Below are positions 26,901 to 42,667 of a stretch of DNA of 64,000 nucleotides, one piece after another. The position numbers and the translations under genes were made by a program. Source of the DNA: Reichenbachiella faecimaris (GTDB lineage: Bacteria > Bacteroidota > Bacteroidia > Cytophagales > Cyclobacteriaceae); NCBI RefSeq assembly GCF_900176375.1, contig NZ_FWYF01000001.1, positions 992,001 to 1,056,000 of the forward strand. The letters run 5' to 3'. The notes under the pieces are model-generated. The model had not been told where the DNA came from. It made no database searches and worked only from the letters and a program-made list of their open reading frames with translations. Each line of letters starts with the position of its first letter. Position 1 is the stretch's first letter.

Positions 26901-29814
26901 TGGTACTTTAGATGACAATGACAATAACATTACTGTTTCCAGTACAGTGAACAATACTGCCATTCATACCAATACGAACATATCCAAAACCAACAGTGGT
27001 ATTATTCTGGCTGGAACAGCCCCTCAAAAAATAACTGGAACAGGCACATTTAGTAGAATTGAGGTAAACAATGCTTCAGATGTAACGATCAATGACGATG
27101 TAATAATTACAGAACAAGTGCGGTTGAATACGGGCTCTTTAGATATTCAAGGTTTCCAATTGACCATGAACGAAGACGCTACCTTTGTAGACGCCAGTGG
27201 GGGCGGATTTTCTTCTTCAAAAATGGTTCAGACTAGAAGAAGCTTTACTGATGCAGGGGTAATCAAAGTTTATAATGGAACCAGTGCAAGTCCATTCACC
27301 TACCCTATTGGGTCTGGCAATAAATACACACCAGTAGTCATTACACTCACACAAAACAGTGAAACCAATGCGACCATTGCCGTAAGAGCTGCTGATGAGC
27401 CACACCCCAACGTGCAAGAAGATGTAGACAGTCCTGAGTTTGTAGATGCCGACAACGTGCTTCAATACTACTGGGAAGTGACCTCCAACGGCATGACCGA
27501 CTTTACTGGCAACTTCACATTTACCTATCACGGCTCAGACGCTTATGTTACTTCTCCATTTACACTAGATGATTATAATACAGCCAGACTTTTGCCAGAT
27601 GACTCAGATACATGGAATAAGTTAGAAACTGGTTTTAATTACCAATCTAGAGATGGCTCAAACACTTTATCATTTGACATTAGCAGTTCATCAGGTGATG
27701 GAGAGCTTGGGGGTGACTATACTGCTGGTGTAGATGGTGCTGTGCCCGATCAGGTTCAAACTGTAATTTCGAATGTGATGGGAGGCACTGGCAATTGGAC
27801 TACAAATGGCTCATGGGATACCAATTCTGCCCCAAGGGGTGCCATAGTGGAAATACAAGCTGGAGATGAAATCATCATGGATGATTCAGACCTTTTAGCA
27901 TACAAGACTGTTATTGATGGTACACTGACTGTTTCGGCATTAGCCACTAACGCTCGATTAGGAAGAGTTTCTGGCACAGGTACTTTGGTAGTTTCTGGAA
28001 GTGGGAACTTACCTGCTGGTATTTATGATGATTTCTTTAATTGTTCTACAGGAGGAACATTAGCTTTTAATGATGACGATGACTATACGCTACCAGATCA
28101 GATTGCAAATCTTCGAAATCTACTGATTGATGGGATAGGCACTAAATCCTTCCCTAATACGGATATCACAATTTGTAATGATTTAGAACTGAGAGGAGGA
28201 ACTACACTAAACAATGACTTCAGTGTAGCAGTAGAAGTATTAGGAAGCGTGACCCTCACCAATGGTATTTTAGATTTGGGAAGCAACACCACTTTCACCG
28301 TCAATGGTGATGTCACCTTGACTGCTGGCACGATTGAATTAGGCAATAATGATTTGATCATTTTAGGGGATTTGAATCTTGATGGGGGCACGTTGGCTTT
28401 AGGAAGCAATGGATCAATAGACTTAGAAGGAGACTTGACCATAGCTGGCGGCACCATTTCAGGGGCTAATTCCTGTAATGTCAATTTCGCTGGAGATATC
28501 ACAAAGTCGTCTGGTAGTTTTACTGTTGATGCAACGACCAACACATTTACTGCAGATGGCACTGCCAATCAGTTTATAACAGGTGACTTCACTGGCAGCT
28601 CAGCCTTCAATCGTCTGACTGTAAATAAAGCATCTGGTAACTTAAGCATCATAGATGGTGGCAACAATGATGTGGAAGTGGATGGTATTTTGACATTGAC
28701 TGCACGAAACATAGTTACAAATGCATCAAATACAATGACCATCACCTCAACAGGGAGTATATCTGGTGGAAGCTCCAGCAGTTATGTCGCTGGCCCACTG
28801 ACCAAGAATGGCGTAGCTGCAAGTGGAAATTTTACATTTCCTGTTGGCACGAGCGGCAGGTATGGTTATGCTCGTATAGAAAATGTAGGTACGGGAGGAC
28901 AAAATTGGACAGTTGAATATTTCGGATCCAATGCCAATGACGAACAACCCATTGATATAACTACCAATCCTGGGTATGGTGCCATGGTTGAGATTAGTGC
29001 GATAAACACTTGGATCATAACCCCAAGTGGAACCAATAGTGCCGTGGTAGAATTAGGTGTAATAGCTGGAATGGGAGTAGATGTGATAGAAGACGTAAGA
29101 GTGACTATATATGATGGCCCTTCTTCTGGCGAATGGGTGAATCTTGGAGGGTCTCCTGCTGGCGACGAAACCAGTGGTTCAATCACTTCTCAAGTGGCTT
29201 CAGACTTTTCGTCCAGCACTTTTTCATTCGGGGGCATTACTCCAGTAGCACTTCCGGTAGAATTGGTAGAATTTACCGCAACACTGAATGATGGTCAGGT
29301 AGACATAAATTGGATCACTTCATCAGAGCTCAACAATGACTACTTTGAAATCGAAAGATCAGCAAATGGCGAAATGTATGAAGTCATTGGAGAAGTGACA
29401 GGACAAGGAACTGCTAATGAGATCATTCATTATAGCTTCGTAGATGATCGTCCCTATTTTGGAATCTCTTATTATAGACTGGCTCAAACCGATTTTGACG
29501 GTAAGAAAACAACATTTCCGGCTGTAACTGTCAACAACGATTCATTCAAACAGGGTATTGAGACCACTGTATTTCCAAACCCGGCATTCTCATATAATGT
29601 CAATCTTAGAATCTCAAGTGGTGATGAAAATTCATTGGTTAAAGTGCTGCTCTCAGACCTATCTGGCAACTTCGTTTATATGGAAGAGATCAACCCAAAA
29701 CTAGGTACAGCCGAGTATCAATTACGCATACCTTCTGGTCTAGATGCTGGTATTTATTTAATGACCATCCAGCAAGCCCATAACCAAAAAATCGAAAGAT
29801 TAATTATCAAGTAA
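20908..29814 (+). CDS. Giant T9SS-exported adhesin-like protein (2968 residues)
   Basis: Secreted surface protein. Signal peptide 1-22 (ending AYSQ), then a concanavalin/LamG-like domain (about 35-255: IFWLRSDKGLTYDG, HIAEIIYYDVVLNEGE, LSEKFGI), a following module at about 260-430 (NLVGISRV, RIWHLEKSG), and a very long beta-helix-like repeat region rich in Asn, Thr, Gly and Ser with phrases such as LTINNDLTIT and AGTIELGNND. Three copies of a module containing F-x-[YF]-P-[IV]-G lie at about 1217, 2130 and 2642. The end has a fibronectin-like linker (VALPVELVEFTA) at about 2779 and a type A T9SS sorting domain from about 2884 (VFPNPAF ... GIYLMTIQ ... IERLIIK). A role in attachment or gliding is inferred. 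Confidence 0.93.
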   Translation: MKRWKIITAFCFTICYTCSAYSQSGPGGVSTPTNNIFWLRSDKGLTYDGTNNVTTWSDQANSHDATNNNTSTNPFFDVSVNIGSNSEPAILFTSASTEYFDLADDASINTSGATARTIYFVFKTGSDVTTTQYLYQQGNSTDGMYATISGGVFTVGIYSSSSNHTISSAALSTDSDYIVGFSYDGASGTLDLSLNGTSSTQVTSVSASIAAHTGIRIGSDVGNSNFMNGHIAEIIYYDVVLNEGETRVLDNYLSEKFGITITNDHFSAAGANYRFNLVGISRVNTDEHNASTGQGGSIYLSENGADALSDNDHIYVGHNNSNLSSTSVDMTGIANTERYNRIWHLEKSGNVGVIIEFDLIESGHYTDVSGLTATDFSLMTRAGTSGDFSQVSMVTNPVFNGDRIQFTLTDAEFASGYITLGVPATSKKWYVINSGDWSSTNTWTLDPAGAIYNNPDGLTPDTSPTAASDIVTILSGKTVQVGNGDMSGTLTKLIVNGTLDFGSSTGHGTVTALEGSGTIRLSDDILPTFTDASVFTSEGAGAGTVEYYGLSDVDLTPASGLTAFYNLVLNFSSSAQHLIVTSDLTINNDLTITQGDFQINDNTATTKITIDLSGDLSVNTNGEISVGTGAIAVPTAPSDYHDTYHRLNISGDFINNGTVNFSNLPGYDFATFPTDGAVTVRFTGQTDNTLTCNNTTNFYDFMLDKGNDQTYILTVNPSAVGNFRVFGRNEIGTSPNSPNPNLGKPIFIKNGTLHLTGNTFIPSLSEGDTNLGEGGNGSWIIPETGALWMDGPNVIVWGTTSDENDIVAIDAGLTAGDINGVRTGPGQQQTPLMMGKFRLTDGVYKGNAAPGLFYSSQGAAHLQIEGGAMDITQLRNQGGAATVVYQQSGGVLTVLGDTEGGNNWSTTSGIFDFIADDGVFNMSGGSIIIKDYNDMADPGEINGININIPEGNYSVTGGTIAIDITTTLPAEGFEIAFAPNFYNLNILNDEAQFVDFQSDIRIANDFILSSGTESRLNGNNLTIGRNFNIATGSTYTQGGNNTTSFNGGAAQTITLAGTYGDFYNVTASGAGLKTISSGDMTITNALTIESGASIDNANQDIILQGALSNSGTHQSTGTGALEFSGGSGTYTISGDDNGVLGNVTLNDATNDVSFLADQAVTGTLDFAQDQLLDINSSKLRMEGASASITNYGAARFVQTDGNASDGGIEWYISGTGSITFPIGTDANNQDVTDGSRYTPAVITIATFTDDGYIQVSVADDEIPSADPPGGGILSYYWRVNHSDFGTVPTISSYVFTHDEVDLDGSGTGSWRCGKGLAESPFTRSTQNDYTASTNAIKFDNSTVDLDRAYYGAGHNNRFNNSPTIYYSRQDGDFNTASTWSRNEQDGSGTQEVPTEGSVVIIQSNGAGDSHRVNVVAAINDLGAVVFDHDYTTYPDALSEDIPRLQFLTAGTFNVGLVSGTGMVSFDATQAITVNGDFGDFGENTDSYYLYFGGTATLNNIPTPIPNLMVESATYTIDQNITTNANVVVQGDGTIIPVQDMNIGGDLIIGTWIGGTFQFPNSAPAVTVTVNGNIDFTEDPFTNPQDRDLIVADAATDLEHTLILHGDIIHGAENGHSLDLYNANNTRPRVILELQGESDNNYARTSTSVPDLYRIVINKGNSQTNSFTFNDDFTISTPTASVQPIELQNGVLVINDTNIGDANDIVLTNETNDTNFDIPSTAGLQISAGTITILGDDLGITLDGAITLDGTGILDMDGGNNNFIQYSSSGSASIDLSGTAQLLVGSQIRESAITSGGILDYTQSGGTALIGTNTGGTPTTTKPMFKVSETGSSFNFTGGTLIIANHLANTSVPSLFLDPASSSIGTGTTIQFGHTSTSSGSEDLTIKSTISLYDLVVDNSSGTSDYPTLSLLNTSLTLNNDLTIEANTTMDASGLALNIAGNFTNNGTFTSNTNTTTFNGSSTQIITGATTFYNLSKTGANTVQLANDLVVQNKLDITSGTLDDNDNNITVSSTVNNTAIHTNTNISKTNSGIILAGTAPQKITGTGTFSRIEVNNASDVTINDDVIITEQVRLNTGSLDIQGFQLTMNEDATFVDASGGGFSSSKMVQTRRSFTDAGVIKVYNGTSASPFTYPIGSGNKYTPVVITLTQNSETNATIAVRAADEPHPNVQEDVDSPEFVDADNVLQYYWEVTSNGMTDFTGNFTFTYHGSDAYVTSPFTLDDYNTARLLPDDSDTWNKLETGFNYQSRDGSNTLSFDISSSSGDGELGGDYTAGVDGAVPDQVQTVISNVMGGTGNWTTNGSWDTNSAPRGAIVEIQAGDEIIMDDSDLLAYKTVIDGTLTVSALATNARLGRVSGTGTLVVSGSGNLPAGIYDDFFNCSTGGTLAFNDDDDYTLPDQIANLRNLLIDGIGTKSFPNTDITICNDLELRGGTTLNNDFSVAVEVLGSVTLTNGILDLGSNTTFTVNGDVTLTAGTIELGNNDLIILGDLNLDGGTLALGSNGSIDLEGDLTIAGGTISGANSCNVNFAGDITKSSGSFTVDATTNTFTADGTANQFITGDFTGSSAFNRLTVNKASGNLSIIDGGNNDVEVDGILTLTARNIVTNASNTMTITSTGSISGGSSSSYVAGPLTKNGVAASGNFTFPVGTSGRYGYARIENVGTGGQNWTVEYFGSNANDEQPIDITTNPGYGAMVEISAINTWIITPSGTNSAVVELGVIAGMGVDVIEDVRVTIYDGPSSGEWVNLGGSPAGDETSGSITSQVASDFSSSTFSFGGITPVALPVELVEFTATLNDGQVDINWITSSELNNDYFEIERSANGEMYEVIGEVTGQGTANEIIHYSFVDDRPYFGISYYRLAQTDFDGKKTTFPAVTVNNDSFKQGIETTVFPNPAFSYNVNLRISSGDENSLVKVLLSDLSGNFVYMEEINPKLGTAEYQLRIPSGLDAGIYLMTIQQAHNQKIERLIIK

Positions 29815-30545: not shown

Positions 30546-31520
30546 ATGAGGAAATTCTTTCAAATATTTATTTTTCTTTTTGGATGTGCTACTCTACTAA
30601 CTAGTTGTAGTTCGTTAAATAATTCGGACGAGAATTTGTCACAGACACTTCCAGATTCATTATCGATTATTCCTTCCAATTTTAGAAATCATCCCGAAAG
30701 AATTCACTTAGAATCCAACTTATTAGTGACGCATCAACTTATAGAAGGAAGAAATAAGCTTATGTTTTCATTTAATCTTCAAAGTCCTAATTCAAATTAT
30801 GTACTAAAAAGTGGAGAACAGATACAAGTTAATCCAGACGGTTGGTCAGAATTAAAATCAATTCCAATTCGTTCAAATCTGGAAAATTGTTTTAATCCAA
30901 TTATTAGTTCCTTAGGTAGGGAAGTATATTTTCTTGGTAAAACAGATAGTGTCAATCACTTATTTCGCATCTCAAAGAGAGATAACCTCTATCATGTTTT
31001 CGATTCAACGTTCAATGAGTTTGCGAACATTACACTTCCTGTCTGGGGAGAGCCTGAAAAATTATCATTTGACATTCCGAAAGGCCACTGGATTGTAGAT
31101 TTTGCAGGGCCAAAAGATGATTTTGCACAATTCCTTCTATTAGGCAATAAAGATGACACGCTGCTTTATAATGTTAAATTGAATTGGGAAGATGACTACA
31201 ACAAATATAAATTCGAGCTTATGCGGTTCGATGATCCAAGTGGCAACACCTTTGACTTAAAACCTTACTTATCGTCCATTGATAATATATATCTTGGAAG
31301 CGGGTATTTGTGTTTCGACAAGTGGGGTCAGATATACTTTTCTAAACGTGGAAAATCTACTTGGTCATGGCCAAAAAAAATTGAAGTTGCTGGGTTTAAA
31401 AAAAATTCAAGGCTTATTGGATTCGAAGTATCCTCCCAAGATTATTACACTACCTATTTGTATTTTCATGCAATTGACTCTGCTGGGAATCTAGGGATTA
31501 AGCATATAAAAAAACCATAA
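30546..31520 (+). CDS. Predicted lipoprotein of unknown function
   Basis: A 324-residue protein with a lipoprotein signal (hydrophobic 5-19, ending LLTSCSS). The mature part is beta-rich with repeated short motifs like REVYFLGKTDSVNHLFRIS and WGQIYFSKRGKSTWSWP, reminiscent of PD40/TolB-like propeller blades, but the match is weak. No catalytic motif is apparent. It opens a run of nine exported-protein genes on the plus strand and is divergent from the glycosylase gene. Base composition looks more AT-rich than the housekeeping flanks. Confidence 0.7.
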   Translation: MRKFFQIFIFLFGCATLLTSCSSLNNSDENLSQTLPDSLSIIPSNFRNHPERIHLESNLLVTHQLIEGRNKLMFSFNLQSPNSNYVLKSGEQIQVNPDGWSELKSIPIRSNLENCFNPIISSLGREVYFLGKTDSVNHLFRISKRDNLYHVFDSTFNEFANITLPVWGEPEKLSFDIPKGHWIVDFAGPKDDFAQFLLLGNKDDTLLYNVKLNWEDDYNKYKFELMRFDDPSGNTFDLKPYLSSIDNIYLGSGYLCFDKWGQIYFSKRGKSTWSWPKKIEVAGFKKNSRLIGFEVSSQDYYTTYLYFHAIDSAGNLGIKHIKKP

Positions 31521-31657
31521 AATCATGAGGTTGTAGATCTAACAAGATGAAGTAAGTAGTTGTTGAGTTTCGTTTAGCTCTTATTCCACCCTGTTGAAGT
31601 CAGCACTCAAAGAAATACATATTTAAAGAAGGTGATAATTGAACCAATAAGATACCT

Positions 31658-32428
31658 ATGAAAATGAAAACTTGCATTATTTCATGTTTAACCTCACTTA
31701 GTTTATTAGCGGCTATCCCTCTTAATGCCCAGAGCCTTGATAGCGCAATCATTGAAGTGGGTCGCAAAATTGAGGTGTATAAATCAGAAAACAAGACACA
31801 AAAAAAACCAGAATATTATCAATTCACCAAAAGTGTTTTTTATATAAACACTTCAGCTCTAACTAGTACTTGTTCGTGCCATGTAAATTTGAATGACCCA
31901 AATTCTCAGCCCCTAGAAGTCGAACAAAAGATAGAATCTGATGGCAATCTTAGTTTAACCTTTTATCCAAAGAGGTCTGGTGTTTACACTGGCTTCTTAA
32001 GCACAAATTGCCCTACGAATTCCTATTTCAAATCCAAATCCAACGCTTTAAACTCAAGTGAGTTGAAGAAGGCTGAGGATCAACAAAATTTTGCATTTTT
32101 CGAAGTAAAAGTGCTTCCTTATCCTGCGGTGATTCTAATCAATGAAGATTCACTTTCAAGTGGAAGTAGTCAACTCAAGATTAGCAACATTCCCAGTTCA
32201 ACTTTGGGATTATATCCCAATTCTGAAATTAAAATAGAAAACATAACCATTTCACTGTCAGATTACGTCATGCGAAATATTTTGACATTCCCAACTATAG
32301 ACAAAATACCAAAAAATGTTTTGACCAGATTGAAACGTGAAAACACAACCTTACATAAGGGTCAGTTCATTCACATCGAATTTGAAGCTAACGGAATCAA
32401 GTGTTTACATCGAATTCTGTTGATCTAA
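31658..32428 (+). CDS. Secreted protein of unknown function
   Basis: A 256-residue protein with a signal peptide (about 1-24, ending PLNAQ). Four cysteines occur (in TSTCSCH, STNCPT and near the C-terminus in GIKCLH), compatible with disulfides. The predicted content is beta-strand with no catalytic motif I recognise. It lies 137 bases after the lipoprotein gene and 17 bases before the next gene's start, so it is probably co-transcribed with the CAP-like gene. Confidence 0.65.
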   Translation: MKMKTCIISCLTSLSLLAAIPLNAQSLDSAIIEVGRKIEVYKSENKTQKKPEYYQFTKSVFYINTSALTSTCSCHVNLNDPNSQPLEVEQKIESDGNLSLTFYPKRSGVYTGFLSTNCPTNSYFKSKSNALNSSELKKAEDQQNFAFFEVKVLPYPAVILINEDSLSSGSSQLKISNIPSSTLGLYPNSEIKIENITISLSDYVMRNILTFPTIDKIPKNVLTRLKRENTTLHKGQFIHIEFEANGIKCLHRILLI

Positions 32429-32445
32429 TTTTAATCATTAATAAT

Positions 32446-33222
32446 ATGAAATATATCATCTCAAGCGTATCCTTAATTCTTAGTTTTCATGCCTTAGCTC
32501 AAGAAAAAATAACTATTGACATCCCCCCAACCATAGTCTGTTATGAGTTAGTTTATGGACATCAGAACGCGCCAGCCTTCTATACAAATATTCCCAAAAC
32601 CATTTATATTTCTGTCCCCTTTTATCAAAACCATTGTGAGTTGAAAATAATGGCCGAAAATGAAAAAAATGAAATCATTCCTACCTCATCTATTTTCCGA
32701 AAAGAAAAAGGAATTAAAGTCAGTTTTGATCCTGTAATAGATTCGGAAATTAATATGACTATTAAATCAATCTGTCCAGATTATGTATCCATGCAAGGAG
32801 CCAGTGGCATCATTCCTCTTGCAGGCGAAAAATTAATGGGCACGCTGGATTTCGAAGTGAAATCATTTCAAGGTAGAGAAATTAGCCATTTCGGAATGGA
32901 AGTCATTCGTAGGATGAATGATTGGCGAACTATGGTTTCTTCTAAAGCATTGATCATAGATGACAAATTGACTCAGGTTGCAAAAGATTTTGACATGAGC
33001 ATGTTTATAGAAGCCGAAGTAAATCTAGAAGCGTATAAATACTACACTATTAGTGGTGGTGGTGGAGAAGGCAATAAAACAACACCTGAAGAATTTATTG
33101 GATTGTATTTGAGTGAATCGACAATGCAGCCTGAATGGACATCTGAAAAATATACGAAGATCGGCTATAGTGATATCAACTATGGTGATGGAGAATATTC
33201 CATCACCATTCTTTTAAAATAG
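32446..33222 (+). CDS. Secreted protein with a CAP-like C-terminal domain
   Basis: A 258-residue secreted protein, signal peptide about 1-18 (ending HALAQ). The start at 32446 is chosen because it begins the signal peptide; the frame is open from 32401. The C-terminal third (MNDWRTMVSSKALIIDDKLT, TPEEFIGLYLSES, WTSEKYTKIGYSDIN, ITILLK) follows the order of conserved blocks in the CAP/SCP superfamily: an N-terminal helix with R and a D-x-x-L pair, a middle helix, then W-x-S-x-x-Y-x-x-[IM]G and a final strand. The CAP metal-binding histidines are not visible, so the assignment is tentative. Confidence 0.55.
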   Translation: MKYIISSVSLILSFHALAQEKITIDIPPTIVCYELVYGHQNAPAFYTNIPKTIYISVPFYQNHCELKIMAENEKNEIIPTSSIFRKEKGIKVSFDPVIDSEINMTIKSICPDYVSMQGASGIIPLAGEKLMGTLDFEVKSFQGREISHFGMEVIRRMNDWRTMVSSKALIIDDKLTQVAKDFDMSMFIEAEVNLEAYKYYTISGGGGEGNKTTPEEFIGLYLSESTMQPEWTSEKYTKIGYSDINYGDGEYSITILLK

Positions 33223-33577
33223 CCACAAGCCCTTCCTTTTTAAAGAATTAATTAGTGGAATAATGTATGCTTTTTTCTAAAACAGTGGTCTGATCAGTAT
33301 CTAAAATAATTCTTTTGACTCAAAGCTGTCAATTTTATTATGAATGTATCTAATCATCATCTTCCGTCAGTCACGAAGGCGATGCTACTTCAAATTAGAT
33401 CTCAATTAACCTTCCTCTAGACAATTGAACTTTGGAAACAACGTTGCTTTTAGGCGAATGAAAAACTCAATAATATTCAATAAAATTTGATTTTAGTAAG
33501 TCATTTAGTCTCTACCAAATTCTTTTTGAAAGCCCCACTCTTGCCAGACAATTGTTTTTTTATTACCTTCTTAAAGT
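33223..33577. other. Non-coding gap before the caspase operon
   Basis: 355 bases with no credible ORF, AT-rich. GAACTTTG (33429-33436) resembles a TAnnTTTG box with one mismatch but has no good -33 partner. No repeat, tRNA or terminator is evident. The promoter of the six-gene caspase operon is expected here. Confidence 0.4.
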
Positions 33578-36544
33578 ATGAAATGCATTTTTTTTCTAAA
33601 TAGCATTTTTTTTGTTTTTGCTGCGTTAGCACAGCAAACAACTCTTTCTGTTCAGACTGGTCATTCTGGCCCAATTAATTGCCTTGCCTACAGCCCTGAC
33701 GATCAAATAATCGCTTCAGGAGGAGCTGACAACAATGTCATTCTTTGGGATGTGAACTCCGGCAAACAAATGAATATCCTTAGTGGTCATAAGGATGAAG
33801 TGGTGGCCATTCATTTTCATCCTGAAAAAAATTGGCTAGCTACAGCATCACTTGATGGATCTGTTAAAATATTCGAGTACCCTAACGGCATGGAGATTAA
33901 AACAGTCGACTTCGAGGATGAAGTTGGCTCCATATCCTTTTACAATAGCGGAAAAGATCTATTTGTAGGTACTCAAGTGGTCAGTTCAGTAGATATGGTA
34001 AATTTCCAAGTCAGTGAAATAACCTCTGATCGTGGTAGTAGAATCGATGTAGTTGCCGTCTCTCCTAATAACAAGCTCCTCGCAACTGGAGGGAAAAACA
34101 GAAAATCAAAAGTGATTGATCTTGAGACTTCCAATATTCTTGCCGAATACCACATATCCGCTCACCACTTAGTTTTTGACTCAACAAACAATTATCTATA
34201 TGGTGGCGCTCCAAATGGGAAATATTTTAGAAAGTCTATTTACAAAAAAGATAATTTCGAAGTTAAATCTAACCGAATATGGAAGAATTTTTATGACGTA
34301 GATATTTCCAATAATTTTTTGGTCGCTGCAAACAGAGATGGTCAAATCTCTGTGTATGACATCTTAAAAAATAGAATCAAGTATAATTTGAATAGTCATG
34401 ATGGTCAAGTAAGAGCACTTGTTCTTTCAAACTCCTCGGGATTTCTTGCAAGTGCAGGAACAGATAAAATTATTCGAATTTGGGATTTATCATCAGGAAA
34501 GCTCAGCAGGACGTTATCTGGCACTGGAAATAGAATTAATGACATCGTTTTTAGTGATGACGGAGAACACCTATATCTAGCTTACGAGAACGGGAGTTTT
34601 AAAAAAAGTCATCTCTCTCCTAATGGGTTCACGTTGTCTAATCAGATAGAACTTGGCAAGTTCACTGAACTTATTGCCCCAAACGCAAGTATTTCTATTG
34701 ATAGCATCATGTCATTCAATACTAACAATGTTGAATTCTGGGCTTCTAAGAAGTGGGCTTCAAAAACCCAAGGATTTTATAAGAAAAGGCAGCCTATGGT
34801 AATTTCATGGGACTTAGCCTCTAATGAATGCATTAGTTCAAAAACCCGAAAAGACAAATTAATAAAAACCAAAGGGCGGAAAAATAAAATAAAATATTTC
34901 AAAAACATATATCCCTTCAAACCCAAATTTGATGCACAAAGCACAGATATTGATAGGAAATTATTTGCCTACATAAAAGAAAACGAACTCATTTTACAAG
35001 ACTTGAATTCAAAAAAGGAGCTGTTCAGCGCAAATACAAACCACACAGATGCAGTATCCTCTATTGCTTTTAATCCTAAGCATGAAATGATCGCAACTTC
35101 AAGCTGGGATGGCACGGTCAAATTTTGGGATTTCAAAGGTGACCAATTGGTTAGTTATTCTACCTCAGGAGACAAAGACTTCATTTTTGTCGATCCAGAC
35201 AACCATTACTTTGCTACTAAAGGGGCACTCGAAAATGTTGGATTTTTATTCAATAACCGTATACTCTCCTTTGACCAATTTGATTTGATTTACAATCGAC
35301 CGGATATTGTATTTGGAAGGCTCACTCACATCGATGACGAATTCGTTTTAAACTACTCCAGAGCCTACAATAAACGACTTCAAAAATTAGGCATTCGTCC
35401 TGAGGAATTGCGTGTTTCTGATGATATACCAGAAATGACTTATAATACCAACCATCAAATTTCAACAAAAATTAATACTTTGAAAATTAACGTCTCCGCT
35501 CAGGATGAGGAAAGCGATCTAGACAAATTTTATCTCTCTGTGAACGGTGTCCCAAGTCAGGGTGAAGAAGGATTTGATATTACTTCCGGCAAGAGATGGC
35601 ATGGTCAAATTGAAATAGAATTAAGTTCAGGATTGAATGAAATACAACTTTATGTAAGGAATAAATCAGGCATTTCATCTCTAAAAGAAACATTCAACAT
35701 CACCTATTCAGGATCTGGGATTCAACCAGATTTGTACCTAGTGACCATTGGTGCCTCAGAATATCAACAATCGGCCTATAACTTGAAGTATGCTGCCAAG
35801 GATGCGATCGATATTGCTAATCAATTCGGTGAATCAAAATTGTTCAATGAGATTAAAACACTCACCATCACGGATGCAGAATTTAAACTAGAAAGCTTAG
35901 GCAAAATTAAATCTTTCATATCAGCCGCCTCTGTAGATGACGTGGTATTACTTTCAATAGCTGGACATGGTGTCTTGGATTCAAATCTTGATTACTACCT
36001 AGCCACCTATGATGTTGATTTTTCAAATCCTTCTGAAAGAGGACTCTCTTATGATCAATTGGAGTCTTTGCTTTCTCAAACAAAATCCAGAAAGAAATCC
36101 CTTTTTATAGACGCTTGTCATTCTGGAGAATTAGATAAAGATGAAGTGACGTTGGCATATAATGAATCTACTGAATTTGGTGATGTTATTTTCAGAAATG
36201 TTGGAGCCACCGTCACTCAAAAAACTAGCATGTCATTGCAAAGTTCTTTTGACTTGTCAAAATCCCTTTTTGCGGACATGCGAGATTCAAATGGTTCTAC
36301 TGTGATTTCTTCTGCGGGAGGGGCTGAATATGCCATGGAAGGATCAGAATGGAATAATGGAGTTTTTACATTTTGTTTATTGAAAGGATTAAAAGACGGT
36401 TCAGCCGATCTGGACGGAAATAACAAGATCATGCTTTCCGAATTACAAGAATACATCTTTGAACAGGTTACCAAAATGACTGGTGGAAGACAAAAACCCA
36501 CTTCCAGAGTTGAAAATCTAAAAAGTGATTTCAGAATATGGTAA
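33578..36544 (+). CDS. Secreted WD40-repeat protein with C-terminal caspase (C14) domain
   Basis: A 988-residue protein with a signal peptide (about 1-19, ending ALAQQ). WD40 repeats fill roughly 25-570, clearest at GHSGPINCLAYSPDDQ, SHDGQVRALVLS and WDGTVKFWDFKG. A beta-sandwich-like linker at about 605-710 follows, then a caspase-fold peptidase from about 718. The catalytic dyad is intact: His797 in SIAGHGVL and Cys847 in FIDACHSGEL. Family knowledge: bacterial C14 proteases cleave after basic or acidic residues and can act in signalling or cell death. The export signal puts this one outside the cytoplasm, unusual for a caspase with WD40 repeats. The stop overlaps the next start, so it leads a six-gene operon. 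Confidence 0.92.
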   Translation: MKCIFFLNSIFFVFAALAQQTTLSVQTGHSGPINCLAYSPDDQIIASGGADNNVILWDVNSGKQMNILSGHKDEVVAIHFHPEKNWLATASLDGSVKIFEYPNGMEIKTVDFEDEVGSISFYNSGKDLFVGTQVVSSVDMVNFQVSEITSDRGSRIDVVAVSPNNKLLATGGKNRKSKVIDLETSNILAEYHISAHHLVFDSTNNYLYGGAPNGKYFRKSIYKKDNFEVKSNRIWKNFYDVDISNNFLVAANRDGQISVYDILKNRIKYNLNSHDGQVRALVLSNSSGFLASAGTDKIIRIWDLSSGKLSRTLSGTGNRINDIVFSDDGEHLYLAYENGSFKKSHLSPNGFTLSNQIELGKFTELIAPNASISIDSIMSFNTNNVEFWASKKWASKTQGFYKKRQPMVISWDLASNECISSKTRKDKLIKTKGRKNKIKYFKNIYPFKPKFDAQSTDIDRKLFAYIKENELILQDLNSKKELFSANTNHTDAVSSIAFNPKHEMIATSSWDGTVKFWDFKGDQLVSYSTSGDKDFIFVDPDNHYFATKGALENVGFLFNNRILSFDQFDLIYNRPDIVFGRLTHIDDEFVLNYSRAYNKRLQKLGIRPEELRVSDDIPEMTYNTNHQISTKINTLKINVSAQDEESDLDKFYLSVNGVPSQGEEGFDITSGKRWHGQIEIELSSGLNEIQLYVRNKSGISSLKETFNITYSGSGIQPDLYLVTIGASEYQQSAYNLKYAAKDAIDIANQFGESKLFNEIKTLTITDAEFKLESLGKIKSFISAASVDDVVLLSIAGHGVLDSNLDYYLATYDVDFSNPSERGLSYDQLESLLSQTKSRKKSLFIDACHSGELDKDEVTLAYNESTEFGDVIFRNVGATVTQKTSMSLQSSFDLSKSLFADMRDSNGSTVISSAGGAEYAMEGSEWNNGVFTFCLLKGLKDGSADLDGNNKIMLSELQEYIFEQVTKMTGGRQKPTSRVENLKSDFRIW

Positions 36545-37281
36545 GGCTTCTACTTTCGGCTATCATGCTCATCACTGTTGTGTTTGTCACTAATGGACAA
36601 TCTTTGAATATTGGCCTAGGCGTAAATCAACCCTTACAAAGGTATAGTGTAACACCCGAAACACATTATTTGTCCTTTTGGAATTACAGTTTTATTTTGG
36701 ATTTGGATGAAACTGTAGACAGGGTTTATCCAGTCTTATACGTATCATATCAAGCAAAAAACAGGTTCTTCCTTAAGAACGAAATTGGTCTCGTAAGAAC
36801 AATAAACGTGATTAAAAAAGAATCTGGTTACTCATTGCACCAAGATGAATATTTTGAAGAGAAATTTGCTGTTAAAATCATCACATTGGACGAGAGATTA
36901 CAGGTCGGTTATACACTAGTCGCTCACTCGGTTATTCAAATAATTCCATACATGGGTGTTCTTGCAAAATGCATGCTTTCTATTGAAGACAGAAGGTATA
37001 GCGGTGGTAAAGGTGTAAGTAACGAATCATTTGTAAATGAAAATTGGATTAATTATCCAATTACAGAGGGCTACTTAGTTAATCAGTCAATGGATTTTAA
37101 ACCTCTAATTATTTATGGATCAGCAGGTGTCCTGTTCAAGTGGTACAACTACTATTTGGGTATAAACTATGACCAAAATATAAGTTCTATTGATAATCGA
37201 GGTTTTTATAAATCTGCAAATCAATTGACCATTTCCCTGGGAATCGACCTGCTAAGCATTTACCTGACCAAACGTCAATGA
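36538..37281 (+). CDS. Exported beta-barrel-like protein
   Basis: A 247-residue protein with a signal peptide (about 1-20, ending TNGQS). The mature part alternates aromatic and polar residues with aromatic strand ends (for example YPVLYVSYQAKNRFFLKNE and WYNYYLGINYDQN) and resembles small outer-membrane beta-barrels of Bacteroidota. No specific family recognised. It overlaps the caspase gene end by seven bases and the next gene start by four, so translation is coupled. It may anchor or export a partner in the outer membrane; that is inference. Confidence 0.7.
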   Translation: MVRLLLSAIMLITVVFVTNGQSLNIGLGVNQPLQRYSVTPETHYLSFWNYSFILDLDETVDRVYPVLYVSYQAKNRFFLKNEIGLVRTINVIKKESGYSLHQDEYFEEKFAVKIITLDERLQVGYTLVAHSVIQIIPYMGVLAKCMLSIEDRRYSGGKGVSNESFVNENWINYPITEGYLVNQSMDFKPLIIYGSAGVLFKWYNYYLGINYDQNISSIDNRGFYKSANQLTISLGIDLLSIYLTKRQ

Positions 37282-38843
37282 GCCGTTGGATTAATATCAT
37301 ATGGACTATCACTTTTGTGCTGACAGCTTGTTTGGAAGCTGATTTATATGACCAAATAGATCCAGAAACCCTATCACGGAGTATAGGTCCTGAAGGAGGA
37401 AAAATTATTTTTTACGATGGAAGTATTCCAGAAATTTCTCTACATGAAACAATCATTGATGGGATATTGGACATTCCTTCTGGAGCACTTGACGAGGAGT
37501 TTGTTTTTGACCTCCAGTATGTTGAGGTTCAGCATTTATATACTGATATTGATGTTTTTGGGGATACTTCTGAAGTGGTCGTTTATTTCGGCTCTGGCTG
37601 GGAATTGGAACCAGAAGTCGAATTCAATCTGCCAGTGAAATTTAGTTATCGCGTGCGGTCATTTGATCTTGATCTAGCTGAGCCAGTTTGCTTCTATTCA
37701 CCCATCTCACGTACGAAGCTTTATCAAGATCAATTAGGAGATTGGGTATATGATCGCCCAGTTGAATTGATAGAATATGAATATAATACAGATGAAAACT
37801 TGATCACCATAGAAATTGATGCTACTGATGAGACAGTTTATGCATTTCATAATGTCCTGACATTGAATGACACCATTTCCAATCCAGATGACTATTCTCA
37901 AGGTAATTTTTTCTGTGAATCCACCAATATTGAACCTGTCATTATTGATTTAAAATTTTTTTCTACGTTCGCTGATGGCAACTTTCTAATTATCCCTCCT
38001 AATTCATTTATTCCTCCTGCCTATTGGGAAATCAATACGGTCAGAGACTTTCCTCTTATTCCCTTTGAAATTAGAGAGCTAGATTACTTTCATGCCTATG
38101 AAGAATTCGAGATTGACGGTATAATCGCTTTGCCAAATGAGGCAGATTACCATCTATACCATGTTGAACTACATAGTTATGATTCCGAAAAAGCTGCCGA
38201 TCTCTTTATGACAGTCAACTACAGGTATCCCTTTAAAATGGGCGATTATGCTAACGAAATCGCCATTTACAAAGTGGATATTGAAGAAGACAAAGTTATT
38301 GAAAAACTAAGTACGGGTATAAACAGAAGTGACCCTGTCTTTATTTTTGAAACTCAAATCAATGAGAGTGGAACGTATGTGATCGGATTAGAAAAAGAAA
38401 AATTTCAGAAATGGCTGGGTGGCAGCGCGACGGTATCTATTGATGACGGCACGTCATCTGACGTTCATTTGTTTTCTAATGAAGATGAATTTGGTTGCTA
38501 TGTTCGGTGCGAAGAAGACGCTTGCTATTATCGTATAAAATTGAATCGTCTGGATGGACTAGGCCCCGAATCCACTGAGCAGCTAAGGTTTGAGATCAAG
38601 CAATCATCTGATGACGGTGACCTTACGTTATCAGAAGAATTTGTTTCTGAATTATTACTTCCAAATTCTGAAAATATCACCCTAATTAATTCAAGTATAA
38701 TTATCAATGAATTTAGTTTTGATCATCTTGATATTGGTGGTACGCTTATAGGTGATATAATCATAGATGCCATTGACCACGATGGAGTTCCTTTATCTGC
38801 TAATATTCAATTCACAACCAAAATATATGCTTCAAGCTTGTAA
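37278..38843 (+). CDS. Lipoprotein with ZU5-like domain
   Basis: A 521-residue predicted lipoprotein (signal ending FVLTACLEA, Cys near 18). Residues about 35-130 resemble a ZU5 domain: IGPEGGKIIFYDGS, ILDIPSGALDEEFVFDLQY, then an E-L-E-P-E-V-E-F-N-L-P-V-K-F strand. ZU5 domains occur next to UPA and death domains in eukaryotes and in bacterial surface lipoproteins. The remaining 390 residues are beta-rich and unassigned, with a Cys-containing segment near 410-425 (GCYVRCEEDACYY). The gene overlaps its neighbours on both sides. Confidence 0.72.
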   Translation: MSRWINIIWTITFVLTACLEADLYDQIDPETLSRSIGPEGGKIIFYDGSIPEISLHETIIDGILDIPSGALDEEFVFDLQYVEVQHLYTDIDVFGDTSEVVVYFGSGWELEPEVEFNLPVKFSYRVRSFDLDLAEPVCFYSPISRTKLYQDQLGDWVYDRPVELIEYEYNTDENLITIEIDATDETVYAFHNVLTLNDTISNPDDYSQGNFFCESTNIEPVIIDLKFFSTFADGNFLIIPPNSFIPPAYWEINTVRDFPLIPFEIRELDYFHAYEEFEIDGIIALPNEADYHLYHVELHSYDSEKAADLFMTVNYRYPFKMGDYANEIAIYKVDIEEDKVIEKLSTGINRSDPVFIFETQINESGTYVIGLEKEKFQKWLGGSATVSIDDGTSSDVHLFSNEDEFGCYVRCEEDACYYRIKLNRLDGLGPESTEQLRFEIKQSSDDGDLTLSEEFVSELLLPNSENITLINSSIIINEFSFDHLDIGGTLIGDIIIDAIDHDGVPLSANIQFTTKIYASSL

Positions 38844-39780
38844 AGTTTTCTTGATGATAAGTTTGCTGTTGGTTATTTTCTCCTGTCTGGATAATAATGT
38901 TAGCCCCAATGTAGAGTTCGACTTAGAAATAGTACTTGAGGATGGTGAGATAGATTATACTAAGGTCGTAGAAGGCGGGGGATTTGGTGTAGCAGCCATT
39001 GATCCGAGTAGTATTAGTATTCCTCGAAACAAAGTTATCTTAGGTTTGAAACCAATAAATTTTGAAGGCCAGGGATCTGAAATTCCAGATACAGAAATTT
39101 CAATCAAAATATCAGGTACTGCTACAGAGGGACAAGACTTCACAGAAGTAAGTAGTAGTTTGTATTATGAGTACCAATACGGGTCAGGTAATATTACTGA
39201 ACTATTTGCATTTGCCATCATAGACGATCAAGAATATGAAGGCACAGAGTCTATAGAGATTGAGCTTTCCTACTCTGTTAATGATGTAATTAAAACTATC
39301 AGCGAAACAATTTACTTATTTGATAATGATTTCCAATTTGAACTAGAATGGAAAAATGAATCAGGAATTGAAGATAATGCAGATATCCAAATGTCTGTAA
39401 GAAGAAATCACTGGCTGGTTTTTCTGGATTTGGGAGAGGCTCAAACTGTTGGAGAAAATTATCAGAAATTCCTCCTTTCAGGAGGTGCCAATAGCTGGAA
39501 GAATGAAACGGGATACGGATGTGATGTAAAGTATTTGAATAGGTCTGGCCCCACAGGGAAAATTAATTTCGTATCAAGACTCCTCCTTCCTACCGGAAAA
39601 GTGCTGGAGCACTCAGACTTCTTTGAGGAAGATGATTATCTGGGATCAGATTATCATAAAATTCCCCTGATAGTTTTTCCTAAGGTTAGAAACAGCCCCT
39701 ATGAACTAGATTTAGAAATTACATACGGACAAAACAAAACAGAAACAATCACAATGGATTTTAATAACTCAATAAATTAA
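38827..39780 (+). CDS. Lipoprotein with Calx-beta-like domain
   Basis: A 317-residue predicted lipoprotein. The frame is open from 38767, but the ATG at 38827 gives a proper lipoprotein signal (MLQACKVFLMISLLL... ending IFSCLDN), so it is preferred; this start overlaps the ZU5 gene end by 17 bases. Residues about 75-170 fit a Calx-beta pattern: an ISGTATEGQDFTEVSSSLYY strand pair, FAFAIIDDQEYEGTESIEIEL, and a closing YLFDND. Calx-beta domains bind calcium in many surface proteins. The C-terminal part is beta-rich and unassigned. Confidence 0.72.
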   Translation: MLQACKVFLMISLLLVIFSCLDNNVSPNVEFDLEIVLEDGEIDYTKVVEGGGFGVAAIDPSSISIPRNKVILGLKPINFEGQGSEIPDTEISIKISGTATEGQDFTEVSSSLYYEYQYGSGNITELFAFAIIDDQEYEGTESIEIELSYSVNDVIKTISETIYLFDNDFQFELEWKNESGIEDNADIQMSVRRNHWLVFLDLGEAQTVGENYQKFLLSGGANSWKNETGYGCDVKYLNRSGPTGKINFVSRLLLPTGKVLEHSDFFEEDDYLGSDYHKIPLIVFPKVRNSPYELDLEITYGQNKTETITMDFNNSIN

Positions 39781-39831
39781 CGGCTTGATAAATTCATAAG
39801 ACAGCCCTTTTTACCCTAAATATTTAAGATC

Positions 39832-40617
39832 ATGAAATATTTACACTTCTTGTTTATTCTTCTTTTGGTAAGTTTTTCAGTTCAATCCCAAACGGTTTTT
39901 TCGGTCATCCATGTCAAGGGAGAAGTCAAAATAAAAAGCACTGGAATAGCTCTCATGCGTGGAATGAAAATTTCAGAAAAAGAAACACTCGTCTATGGCA
40001 GCGTCAATGACTTGGTGGCAGCCATCAATCCTCAAAAGGGAAAAGTAATCCTTCAACCTACGGCTGATGCACACTCGAAAAATAGCGAACTGGCCTTTGT
40101 AATCAAGGATATTTACAGCCCTATGCTAGGAAATGCTACCACTCGCGGATCTTCCTTACTTACCACGATAGGCATTGTCAACTTCTTCAAGGCTGGTTTC
40201 TTAGTGTTGGATGAAAATGAATTTGAATTCAATGAACGCGACTTTCCACTTTCAGACAGTTCTTTCTTTTTTGTTCGATACTCAGCAGAAAAATTTGATG
40301 AACCTATTAACAAAAAATTACCTATTAACGAAGGCAGAGTACTGCTCAATCGAGACGACTTTTTGCGCATTGATGGCAACGAAATAGATGCCTCCACTTT
40401 GTCCAATTTCGAATTGTTCTACTTTGCCGATAACATGACCAACAAGCTAGCAAATATGGAATTGTATATAATTCCTATGAAAGAAATCAATGAAGTAATT
40501 GATGTAATCAAAACCTCTGGTATTGACAATCCATTTATGGAGTGCTTGCAGTACATGCAAATCATCTACGGAAACGTTGATCCTTCGAGACTCGAAACGA
40601 TCTTCAACGAACGGTGA
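39832..40617 (+). CDS. FecR-like secreted protein
   Basis: A 261-residue exported protein with a signal peptide (about 1-19, ending SVQSQ). Residues about 22-75 follow the FecR/periplasmic sensor pattern: VIHVKGEVKIK, a G-x-x-L-x-x-G-x-x-I segment (GIALMRGMKISEKETL), then a strand ending GKVILQP. Unlike anti-sigma FecR proteins it has no membrane helix or N-terminal cytoplasmic domain and no sigma factor gene nearby. It is coupled to the CHASE2 gene by a four-base overlap; FecR-like and CHASE2 genes often pair in bacteria. Conserved partnership is family knowledge; the ligand is unknown. Confidence 0.7.
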   Translation: MKYLHFLFILLLVSFSVQSQTVFSVIHVKGEVKIKSTGIALMRGMKISEKETLVYGSVNDLVAAINPQKGKVILQPTADAHSKNSELAFVIKDIYSPMLGNATTRGSSLLTTIGIVNFFKAGFLVLDENEFEFNERDFPLSDSSFFFVRYSAEKFDEPINKKLPINEGRVLLNRDDFLRIDGNEIDASTLSNFELFYFADNMTNKLANMELYIIPMKEINEVIDVIKTSGIDNPFMECLQYMQIIYGNVDPSRLETIFNER

Positions 40618-41768
40618 GGAAACTTTTTTCATATTGGAAAAAAATTATCCTGATCGCCTGCCTACATAGCATCTGCTTGGTTATTGGTAGTATCTATCTC
40701 CAGAAACTACCCTGGGTATTTAAAGGTGAAGACTCCCTAATTCAATGGGCTATTATCTTGAAGCGCGTGGTGCTTGAACACAATCCCCCAAAGGAGGAGT
40801 TCGTATTCATAAATACTTCATTTTCCAATCAGGTTATTGATAATTTCGATCAATATGGCCTCCCAATGGGAAATCAAGTAATTACAGATCGATTTGAACT
40901 TACTCAGCTATTTGGTATCATGAATCGCACCAACGTCCATAAACACCTTATAATTGATATCTTTTTTGAACACAACAGTCTGGCTGACTCACTTCTAAGT
41001 ATTGAGATTGAAAGCTTGGAAAGAACCATACTGGCTGCGATTCTCGATGACAACAATCAGGTCAAAACACCAATCTTCATGAACGAATTTGGATTGGTAA
41101 CTGTAGAAACCTTGGACGATATATTTTTGAAATATCAATTGATCTGGAACGACTCCTTAAAAGTCCTTCCTCTGCGATTGCACGAAACAGAAATTGGAGA
41201 GAACCATCGAAAAGTTGGCCCCTTTCTGCTATCTCAAAGCGAATGGAGCATGGACTCCTACATACCCGATATTCGGATTAGTCAATTCGATGTGACTGTT
41301 GAGCGTTTGTATCCCTTGGTAAATCTGCCAGATCTCTTGTACTTAGAAGATGCTGATATTGCCAAATTGATGACTGGTAAGGTAGTTGTGATTGGGGATT
41401 TTTTAGGTCATGACAACTTCGAAACATTGACTGGCCAAATTGCAGGCCCGCTGTTGTTGGCAAATATTTACCTTTCACTTAACGAGGGTGATCATCACCT
41501 GACTTGGGGATTTCTCCTCTTTTTATTCTTCTCCTTTGCTGTCATAAGTATGGTCGTGCTTTTGCCCGACAAACAGATGAAGGTGAACACAGGCTGGAAG
41601 CGAATAATATTCGGGAGCAGTTTTATTATCTACCTTTCTATACTCTCTATCATCTCCTATATGGTCTTTCATAAAGCATTGAACGTTTTCATTCTGAGTT
41701 TTTACTTGTTTGGATTGAACTGGGTATTAGAGAAAGTGATTAATTCAGAAAAATTAAAGCCTGAATGA
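40614..41768 (+). CDS. CHASE2-domain membrane protein without output domain
   Basis: A 384-residue protein: an N-terminal membrane helix at about 12-29, an extracytoplasmic CHASE2-type domain at about 35-300 (EEFVFINTSF, HKHLIIDIFFE, GKVVVIGDFLGHDNFETLTG, IAGPLLLANIYLSL), then three membrane helices between about 308 and 375. CHASE2 normally feeds a cytoplasmic cyclase, kinase or phosphatase. Here the chain ends about eight residues after the last helix, so no cytoplasmic effector is attached. It is the last gene of the caspase operon. Confidence 0.8.
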   Translation: MRKLFSYWKKIILIACLHSICLVIGSIYLQKLPWVFKGEDSLIQWAIILKRVVLEHNPPKEEFVFINTSFSNQVIDNFDQYGLPMGNQVITDRFELTQLFGIMNRTNVHKHLIIDIFFEHNSLADSLLSIEIESLERTILAAILDDNNQVKTPIFMNEFGLVTVETLDDIFLKYQLIWNDSLKVLPLRLHETEIGENHRKVGPFLLSQSEWSMDSYIPDIRISQFDVTVERLYPLVNLPDLLYLEDADIAKLMTGKVVVIGDFLGHDNFETLTGQIAGPLLLANIYLSLNEGDHHLTWGFLLFLFFSFAVISMVVLLPDKQMKVNTGWKRIIFGSSFIIYLSILSIISYMVFHKALNVFILSFYLFGLNWVLEKVINSEKLKPE

Positions 41769-41863
41769 AGATTACTTGTACATTTTAAGGCAATGATAAC
41801 AAATCTGGAATACATGACTACTCAACCAGGGTAGGCTTCTCGCCCCATATAGCTCTAAACAAC

Positions 41864-41893
41864 AAAAGCCTCAGCGAATGCTGAGACTTTTAA
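41864..41893 (-). terminator. Terminator of the CAU tRNA
   Basis: On the minus strand AAAAG-T-CTCAGC, ATTC loop, GCTGAG-G-CTTTT forms a hairpin with one mismatch, immediately 3' of the tRNA. Confidence 0.75.
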
Positions 41894-41897
41894 ATTG

Positions 41898-41971
41898 TGG
41901 GCCCACCTGGGCTCGAACCAGGGACTTTCTGATTATGAGTCAGATACTCTAACCAACTGAGTTATAGGCCC
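41898..41971 (-). tRNA. tRNA with CAU anticodon (Ile2 or Met)
   Basis: The reverse complement folds as a full 74-base tRNA: acceptor GGGCCTA with TGGGCCC (one G-U pair), D arm with AGTTGGTTA loop, anticodon stem TCTGA/TCAGA with loop CTCATAA (anticodon CAU), T arm CCTGG-TTCGAGC-CCAGG, discriminator A. CCA is not encoded. CAU with this GGGCC acceptor fits tRNA-Ile2, whose C34 is converted to lysidine, but elongator tRNA-Met cannot be excluded by eye; it is not initiator, as the anticodon stem lacks the three G-C pairs. Confidence 0.95.
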
Positions 41972-42049
41972 TTCAAAATAGTCTATTCAACTGCCTTGAA
42001 TTTGGAGGTGCAATGTTACATATTTGCCCAAAATTACACAAACAAACCC

Positions 42050-42667
42050 GTGAATATCAAAACAATAATTTTTGATCTTGGTGGCGTCATTATCGATCTG
42101 GATTTCAAACGCACCCCAAAAGCTTTTAGTCAACTGACTGGATGGCCATTCGACGACATCTTCAAGTTGTACTTCGAGCCTGGTTTGTTTCAGAATTACG
42201 AGAAAGGCCTGATAAAAGATCAAGAGTTAAGAAGTGGTATCAATGATCTGTTTGGTGCCCAGCTTTCTGACACACAAATAGACGAGGCCTGGTGTGCCAT
42301 GCTTGGCTTTGTGCCAAAAGCACGATTGGACTTCATGAACGAATTGCGTAAAAATTATCAGGTGTTAGTCCTGAGCAACACCAACGCTATTCATGTAGCT
42401 GCGTTTAACCAAACCATCAAAGAAGTATCTGCAGAGAATTCGTTGGAAGCATTTGTAGATAAAGTGTACTTCTCCCATGAAATGGGAATGAGAAAACCTG
42501 ACCTGGAAATTTACGAGGAACTGCTCAAGCAATCAAACATCAAGGCTGAGGAGTGTATGTTTCTGGACGATACACAGCACAACCTAGACGGCGCAGCACA
42601 ACTTGGCATTCATACTATGCATATCACTCACCCAGATCAAATATTTAACTTAGCAACAGATGTTTAA
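42050..42667 (+). CDS. HAD-superfamily phosphatase (YihX-like)
   Basis: A HAD hydrolase of about 205 residues. Motif I is IIFDLGGVIIDLDF at the N-terminus, motif II LVLSNTNAIH, motif III in HEMGMRKPDLEIYEELL, and motif IV MFLDDTQHNLDGA. The order and wording closely follow E. coli YihX, an alpha-D-glucose-1-phosphate phosphatase. The second aspartate of DxD is replaced by Gly, which is usual in this subgroup. I chose the GTG at 42050, which begins two residues before the first strand; a TTG at 41996 would add an unconserved N-terminus. The end overlaps the M50 protease start by eight bases. Confidence 0.88.
   Translation: MNIKTIIFDLGGVIIDLDFKRTPKAFSQLTGWPFDDIFKLYFEPGLFQNYEKGLIKDQELRSGINDLFGAQLSDTQIDEAWCAMLGFVPKARLDFMNELRKNYQVLVLSNTNAIHVAAFNQTIKEVSAENSLEAFVDKVYFSHEMGMRKPDLEIYEELLKQSNIKAEECMFLDDTQHNLDGAAQLGIHTMHITHPDQIFNLATDV

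Follow-up and report, generated by a model that had tools for sequence, protein, structure and literature searches.

What do six consecutive genes for apparently exported proteins, a caspase and a CHASE2 protein among them, form together in Reichenbachiella faecimaris (Bacteroidota; Cytophagales)? The genes (g1 to g6) lie in a 64,000-nucleotide stretch of contig NZ_FWYF01000001.1 (positions 992,001 to 1,056,000 of the forward strand; hereafter the window), where six plus-strand open reading frames (ORFs) span 33578-41768 with junctions of -7, -4, -17, +51 and -4 bases. This is exactly the layout given in a first-pass annotation of the window, which had read all six genes as one periplasmic sensing module with FecR and CHASE2 proteins as sensors and the caspase as protease output. 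We found that the conserved unit is three genes, not six: the caspase (g1), g5 and the CHASE2 protein (g6) recur together, and the six-gene set does not. On the sequence comparisons below, we give an even chance to a conserved envelope module in which a CHASE2 sensor and g5 would act through an exported caspase output.

Co-occurrence was scored in an order sample of 148 genomes (Cytophagales), in which the CHASE2 search was seeded with the window's own g6. In the 28 CHASE2-positive genomes, g5 is always present, as compared to 9 of the 120 other genomes (Fisher p 1e-22), and a caspase is present somewhere in 27 of the 28 as compared to 63 of the 120 (p 3e-6). Linkage was measured at 95 distinct CHASE2 loci drawn from the order sample, a scan of named genomes (77 CHASE2 loci, with a caspase-linked CHASE2 as seed), congeners and a phylum sample. 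This count excludes CHASE2 ORFs that are shorter than 250 aa, that contain X runs or whose residues 60-200 are identical; near-identical Flammeovirga loci are still within the set. A caspase was called linked when it was on the same strand and no more than 5 kb from CHASE2, and g5 was counted within 3 kb. By these definitions, 63 of the 95 loci have g5, 34 have a linked caspase where about 0.7 caspase loci are expected, and 25 have both, five of them as fusions. The expectation comes from a background of 228 caspases in 197.7 Mb (approximately 0.75% of loci expected by chance), calculated with rounded genome sizes from 47 genomes chosen mostly for a caspase-less CHASE2 locus. Of the 61 loci with flanks of 5 kb or more on each side, 28 have a same-strand caspase. 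The binomial tail for 34 of 95 loci is near 1e-47 and, for the order sample alone (8 of 33 loci caspase-linked), near 1e-10; these values and the Fisher values take related genomes and loci as independent, which overstates their significance. Without the window's own genome, 6 of 31 loci in the order sample are caspase-linked. Caspases were detected with our own iterated hidden Markov model, and divergent ones may be missing from all of these counts.

The genome itself holds a second WD40-caspase-g5-CHASE2 operon (L065), without g2-g4. This operon is syntenic in two of seven congeners (G340 and G342), with identities of 82-89% for the caspase, 63-70% for g5 and 76-84% for CHASE2, and the other five congeners have no CHASE2 match. 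Directly before the second operon is a 634-aa BamB/PQQ-type beta-propeller gene (G000:C6:21208-23112; L065:7209-9113) that is kept in both congeners; 638-aa genes occupy the same place at three Cyclobacteriaceae loci (L135, L138, L144), a likeness by length only. In the phylum sample, two of the three strong CHASE2 matches outside the window's own genome have same-strand caspases, one of them with five in a row. A caspase near g5 in genome G004 was not counted as linked, as two opposite-strand genes lie between them and there is no CHASE2 there. Some organism titles of contigs from metagenome-assembled genomes may reflect binning errors; CHASE2 and g5 are also found on contigs labeled archaeon, cyanobacterium, Thalassobius, Thalassovita or Desulfatirhabdium (L109, L110, L113, L123, L131, L147) that are possibly misbinned.

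The order of the three genes is shuffled between loci. The commonest caspase architecture is WD40-caspase, g5, CHASE2, present at 11 loci (the window included, with g2-g4 passed over); elsewhere the caspase is last, in the middle or repeated, and at L202 (8919-19899, minus strand) CHASE2 and g5 come after a run of five caspase genes. Two of these five were scanned with Pfam and have TPR repeats and a Glucodextran_B domain. At five Bacteroidales loci (L168, L171, L172, L175, L181), the first domain of g5 is fused to a caspase that adjoins CHASE2. The fused domain is matched at E 1e-6 to 1e-10 by a model of seven unfused Bacteroidales g5 proteins, which themselves match the Cytophagales-type g5 model at 1e-9 to 1e-16. 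The Cytophagales-type model directly matches only one of the five fusions (E 0.004), and a profile comparison of g5 with the fused domain is weak (probability 14%). What looks like a fusion of g5 with CHASE2 in L131 crosses an N gap and was not counted among the fusions. A further g5 fusion is present at L154 (11095-13917), where a 940-aa protein beside CHASE2 has the g5 domain first (E 1.5e-19) and then a TPR-containing region.

At five further loci (L151, L155, L164, L165, L177), CHAT proteins take the place of the caspase, on the same strand and within 5 kb; the three that were scanned with Pfam all have TPRs, and the CHAT gene of L151 is split into two ORFs. In rumen Bacteroidales (L157-L160, L163, L166), uncharacterized secreted-looking proteins of approximately 640-656 aa or approximately 1030 aa are encoded beside CHASE2, and the three scanned (L157, L163, L166) have no Pfam match at E 0.01. 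Where neither caspase nor CHAT is near (L157-L160, L163), these proteins may replace the protease.

In a quick tree of 65 caspase domains (L243, L254 and L261 omitted as copies of linked loci; L257 unlabeled), linked and unlinked rows are clustered yet interleaved. The label "linked" needs 10 changes on this tree, 6 of them forced by starred branches, as compared to a shuffled mean of 21.3; thus, more than one caspase lineage has been paired with CHASE2. The window's caspase is in a starred clade of 14 rows, 13 of which are linked.

That the six genes are simply a chance grouping of unrelated exported genes is very improbable. The nearly orphan genes g2-g4 would fit such a grouping, and a search of 290 other genomes of the order found no g3, but the linkage, fusion and co-occurrence statistics reject it for g1, g5 and g6, and g1-g4 are found together again in a second genome. 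The first-pass annotation had held that a caspase gene without its neighbors in relatives would point to chance. Such cases do exist, as described below for one member of the window's caspase clade and for the CHASE2 loci without a protease; the repeated independent pairings still reject chance.

By sequence, g1 is a caspase. Peptidase_C14 (PF00656) matches residues 723-985 with 45.8 bits as compared to a cut-off of 21.4, WD40 repeats are N-terminal to it, and the catalytic pair is His797 (in SIAGHG, from residue 793) and Cys847 (in IDACHSG, from residue 844), which bears out the earlier description of a caspase with both residues intact. Both residues are invariant across an alignment of 11 full-length WD40-caspases, of which g1 is one. 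In the AlphaFold2 model (mean pLDDT, the predicted local distance difference test, 68), we read a WD40 propeller at approximately 33-540, a helical linker at 548-611 and a beta-sandwich at 619-710, with approximate borders taken from our own reading of secondary structure. A plausible role of the WD40 repeats is to bind a partner or to hold the protease. A profile search of the Protein Data Bank (PDB) with the caspase domain gave one match, the uncharacterized structure 3bij (E 4.5e-4). Four caspases in this genome, g1 among them, are over the Pfam cut-off.

The N terminus of g1 is signal-like, and when a strict export test was applied to the 35 non-truncated linked caspases, 27 passed. Several failures have a plausible signal peptide that bears a polar residue or have apparently wrong or internal starts; the ORF caller is greedy, and its start codons are possibly wrong. 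From the N termini of g1 and its relatives and from the fusion to secreted g5, we infer that the g1 caspase is extracytoplasmic, in the periplasm. All six products have an N-terminal hydrophobic segment and look exported or membrane-bound, as had been claimed, and five of the six pass a crude export test (g4 with a longer start); g1 fails it, with an N within its stretch.

The g5 protein belongs to a coherent secreted family, and its model (pLDDT 83) has two beta domains and three C-terminal helices by our own reading. The first-pass annotation had called it FecR-like, which we reject: FecR (PF04773) matches 0 of 24 proteins (g5 and 23 relatives) at E 1, a search of the genome finds FecR in seven places, none of which is g5, and hhalign of g5 against a profile of 14 true FecR domains gives a probability of 1.7%. 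A Pfam scan of ten genes (30546 to 42664) found no sigma factor family, and PDB sequence profiles of g5 and g6 returned nothing useful.

The spans of g6 by hydropathy are 11-29, 299-317, 331-349 and 358-376, with the CHASE2 region between the first and the second and a short tail. By the same crude scan, the commonest layout in the family is one plus two spans (44), followed by one plus three (28) and one plus four (15). CHASE2 (PF05226) matches 20 of 29 aligned family members (best E 9e-10), so the CHASE2 protein that the first-pass annotation placed in the operon holds by its family; g6 itself has no Pfam match at E 0.01, though it aligns with the family over its length. None of the 29 members has a second Pfam family (kinase, cyclase or other output) at E 0.01. 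The CHASE2 matches of the family, the one plus three spans and the short tail thus indicate that g6 is a CHASE2 protein without kinase or cyclase.

Taken together, these data suggest a mechanism in which g6 would sit in the inner membrane, its receptor domain facing the periplasm, secreted g5 would work with it as a ligand-binding or adaptor subunit, and the exported WD40-caspase would be the protease output. The caspase would be kept inactive or localized by the WD40 propeller and by contact with g5 and CHASE2 until the sensor is triggered. The CHASE2 protein lacks any cytoplasmic domain such as a kinase or cyclase, and the signal would therefore be read out by proteolysis outside the cytoplasm. 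In Sinorhizobium, cAMP synthesis is constitutive when a cyclase lacks its CHASE2 domain (PMC5498481), which argues that CHASE2 can hold an output in check. The linkage of the genes is strong, and what we infer is the localization, the physical complex, the activation, the trigger and the substrate. Of the periplasmic sensor with caspase output that had been annotated, the core, a sensor coupled to an exported caspase, is strongly favored by the comparisons, with a caspase-CHASE2 linkage far from chance; FecR as the sensor does not stand. More tentatively, it is possible that output-less CHASE2 receptors signal via g5 to an extracytoplasmic caspase or CHAT protein in the Bacteroidota envelope, with WD40-, TPR-, g5-fused and bare caspases as interchangeable protease arms.

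The genes g2-g4 would be lineage add-ons, whose products most probably act with the caspase in the envelope or are cleaved by it. The domain names given to them earlier fared unevenly. For g2, described as beta-barrel-like, the only match is weak and comes from a homologue (OMP_b-brl, E 0.0023); g2 itself has none. ZU5 in g3 was set aside, since neither Pfam nor any useful match to a solved structure supported it. The Calx-beta region (PF03160) of g4 is matched at 22.9 bits (E 9e-5), and that of its homologue at 19 bits (E 0.0015), both below the cut-off of 27. We found homologues of g2-g4 in one other genome, which came from the scan of named genomes, Bacteroidia bacterium 5_bin.51 (L149, the source of the homologues above), again beside a caspase and in the window's order (identities 52% for g1, 29% for g2, 28% for g3 and 27% for g4). 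This set is tail to tail with a different g5-CHASE2 pair, and its caspase, on the opposite strand, is thus outside the linked set. A 919-aa gene before g5 in L149, which from its first residues we take to begin like DNA polymerase I, was not counted as a partner. The proteins of that genome that best match g5 (35%) and g6 (50%) of the window are encoded at a separate place, L180. This arrangement indicates that g2-g4 travel with the caspase there and that g5-g6 is a separable pair.

Several observations weigh against the module of CHASE2 sensor, g5 and caspase output. The g1-g4 and g5-g6 orthologues of Bacteroidia bacterium 5_bin.51 are at different places, as just described. There is no same-strand caspase within 5 kb at 61 of the 95 CHASE2 loci, some of which are at contig ends, and 56 have neither caspase nor CHAT nearby (36 with g5 and 20 without). 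In 11 of the 47 genomes that contain CHASE2 loci there is no C14 match, in 8 there is no CHAT match, and in 4, all rumen Bacteroidales, there is neither. Within the window's caspase clade, the exception is a WD40-caspase of G340 (L255/L266) that has no g5 or CHASE2 within its 20 kb. No PDB structure reached E 1e-3 in a Foldseek search with the g5 model, and the crude export test is weak because 541 of 1211 other ORFs also pass it. The loci and genomes without a protease indicate that the g5-CHASE2 pair is often, but not necessarily, accompanied by a protease. In Flammeovirga-type loci (L072, L074, L078-L081), a bare g5-CHASE2 pair is preceded by a conserved gene of 154-169 aa, presumably for a GreA-type factor.

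The 36 loci with g5 and CHASE2 and without caspase or CHAT would also fit envelope housekeeping, in which CHASE2 and g5 are a functional pair (for example in membrane-anchored assembly or maintenance) and the caspase is optional, a protease for the maturation of lipoproteins or outer-membrane proteins; signaling would play no part. The stricter co-occurrence of g5 with CHASE2 than of CHASE2 with a neighboring caspase points the same way. We consider this explanation unlikely: it is opposed by the repeated linkage and the g5-caspase fusions, and CHASE2 is described as a receptor domain of kinases and cyclases (PMC5192318, PMC9239204).

Judged by g6, the window's locus is present in none of the seven congeners. 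G342 keeps the flanks, a uracil-DNA-glycosylase-family gene (71%), a HAD hydrolase (80%) and a third flank gene (89%) that we take to be a membrane metallopeptidase; between them, it has three small ORFs where the window has g1-g6 and three upstream genes, u1-u3. The window's gene set thus looks accessory in this genus, with u1-u3 belonging to the same block that has no match at this place in G342. Elsewhere in the window (20908-29814), a 2968-aa gene has a Por_Secre_tail (type IX secretion signal), and its G342 homologue is a 4583-aa ORF.

An accessory locus with other small ORFs between the same flanks is what could be expected of envelope defense or regulated lysis, in which the module would respond to damage of the envelope, adsorbing phage or contact with kin by killing or lysing the cell via the caspase. 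The patchy spread of the CHASE2 family (28 of 148 order genomes; in the phylum sample 5 of 395, one of them the window's own genome and another only a weak match) and the pairing of more than one caspase lineage are in keeping with this, and a review proposes that surface CHASE2 or WD40 triggers cyanobacterial orthocaspases, with a cytosolic p20, in phage infection or stress (PMC7475262). We nevertheless regard defense as improbable. Of the six operon genes, PADLOC models match g1 alone, namely a caspase model (E 8e-7) and, across its first WD40 residues, HEAT-ARM_XIII (E 2e-20); the ten genes scanned have no nuclease or NTPase family, and the second operon is syntenic in two congeners.

The features of the locus are collected in Table 1. 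A consensus scan for terminators found 12 hairpins as compared to 5.5 in shuffles, and the two that flank the operon fit a predicted single transcript for the six genes. A promoter scan of the window was at shuffle level.

Table 1. Features of the g1-g6 locus, in window coordinates
Feature	Position	Strand	Basis
u1-u3, three genes, signal-like N termini (by eye), without Pfam assignment	30546..33222	+	ORFs, Pfam scan
Terminator-like hairpin, upstream of g1, at 3' end of preceding gene	33182..33209	+	consensus scan
g1, WD40-caspase, 988 aa, predicted exported	33578..36544	+	ORF, Pfam, motifs, AlphaFold2
g2, 247 aa, signal peptide by eye, outer-membrane beta-barrel-like (weak)	36538..37281	+	ORF; no Pfam match
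g3, 521 aa, putative lipoprotein (LTAC lipobox by eye)	37278..38843	+	ORF; no domain match
g4, about 317 aa, putative lipoprotein, weak Calx-beta region	38827..39780	+	ORF; longest ORF starts 38767
g5, 261 aa, secreted family without Pfam name	39832..40617	+	ORF, family comparison, model
g6, 384 aa, CHASE2 protein, four membrane spans	40614..41768	+	family alignment, Pfam on relatives, hydropathy
Terminator-like hairpin downstream of g6	41863..41892	both	consensus scan

Single elements of this set, two of its pairings and the idea of CHASE2-triggered caspases are known. In Trichodesmium erythraeum, a metacaspase-CHASE2 fusion has a caspase that is predicted to be cytoplasmic (PMC3501461, PMC2853523). 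As in the window, a caspase-fold protease is joined with a CHASE2 that has one span before and three after; however, the caspase there is N-terminal in one polypeptide, whereas here it is separate and predicted to be exported, and g5 is present as a partner. The review cited above for orthocaspases (PMC7475262) had already proposed a CHASE2-triggered caspase, there with p20 in the cytosol. A secreted protein encoded beside a CHASE2 membrane sensor is also found in operons of FecR and CHASE2: Burkholderia BiofilmReg, with a LysM-FecR protein and a CHASE2 histidine kinase (PMC5192318, where the CHASE2 signal is called unknown), and Campylobacterota, with a CHASE2 adenylate cyclase, a FecR outer membrane protein and a TPR protein (PMC9239204). 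In contrast to those operons, where CHASE2 ends in a cytoplasmic kinase or cyclase, there is no output domain here, the partner gene is often for a predicted exported caspase or CHAT, and g5 is not FecR by sequence.

CHASE2 with membrane helices has also been described where caspases are used, as one possible form of a conflict-system component with a variable C terminus that its authors compare with EACC1 systems (PMC8195603). Unlike that network, the ten genes scanned here have no EACC1 component, and NCBIfam caspase_w_EACC1 (NF047832) scores g1 at 74 bits, below its cut-off of 140; CHASE2 and FecR do not occur in the EACC1 paper (PMC7159879). A Nostoc punctiforme cluster of two WD40 genes, CHASE2 and DUF928 (PMC5587647) likewise has WD40 and CHASE2 genes side by side, but the portion of that paper describing it names no caspase, and the window genes have no Pfam match to DUF928. 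A survey lists 46 caspases with N-terminal helices, possibly signal peptides, and multi-caspase operons in Bacteroidetes (PMC3501461), and further caspase-linked domains are listed in PMC5756287. In a literature search that did not cover subscription papers and preprints, no paper combined CHASE2 and caspase with FecR, or CHASE2 and the term "CHAT domain" with Bacteroidetes, and none contained any phrase tried for caspases that are exported or periplasmic. We did not find the exported caspase-g5-CHASE2 set in print by these searches, though it may be listed in the supplementary operon table of PMC3501461.

Discussion of bacterial caspases mostly treats them as proteases of the cytoplasm that serve in death or defense. 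If the module of CHASE2 sensor, g5 and caspase output is true, it would be a case of caspase signaling under the control of a transmembrane receptor outside the bacterial cytoplasm, in the envelope of Bacteroidota. Many exported Bacteroidota caspases would gain a partner and a testable role, CHASE2 would gain a readout, and g5 would be a defined protein family that marks the system.

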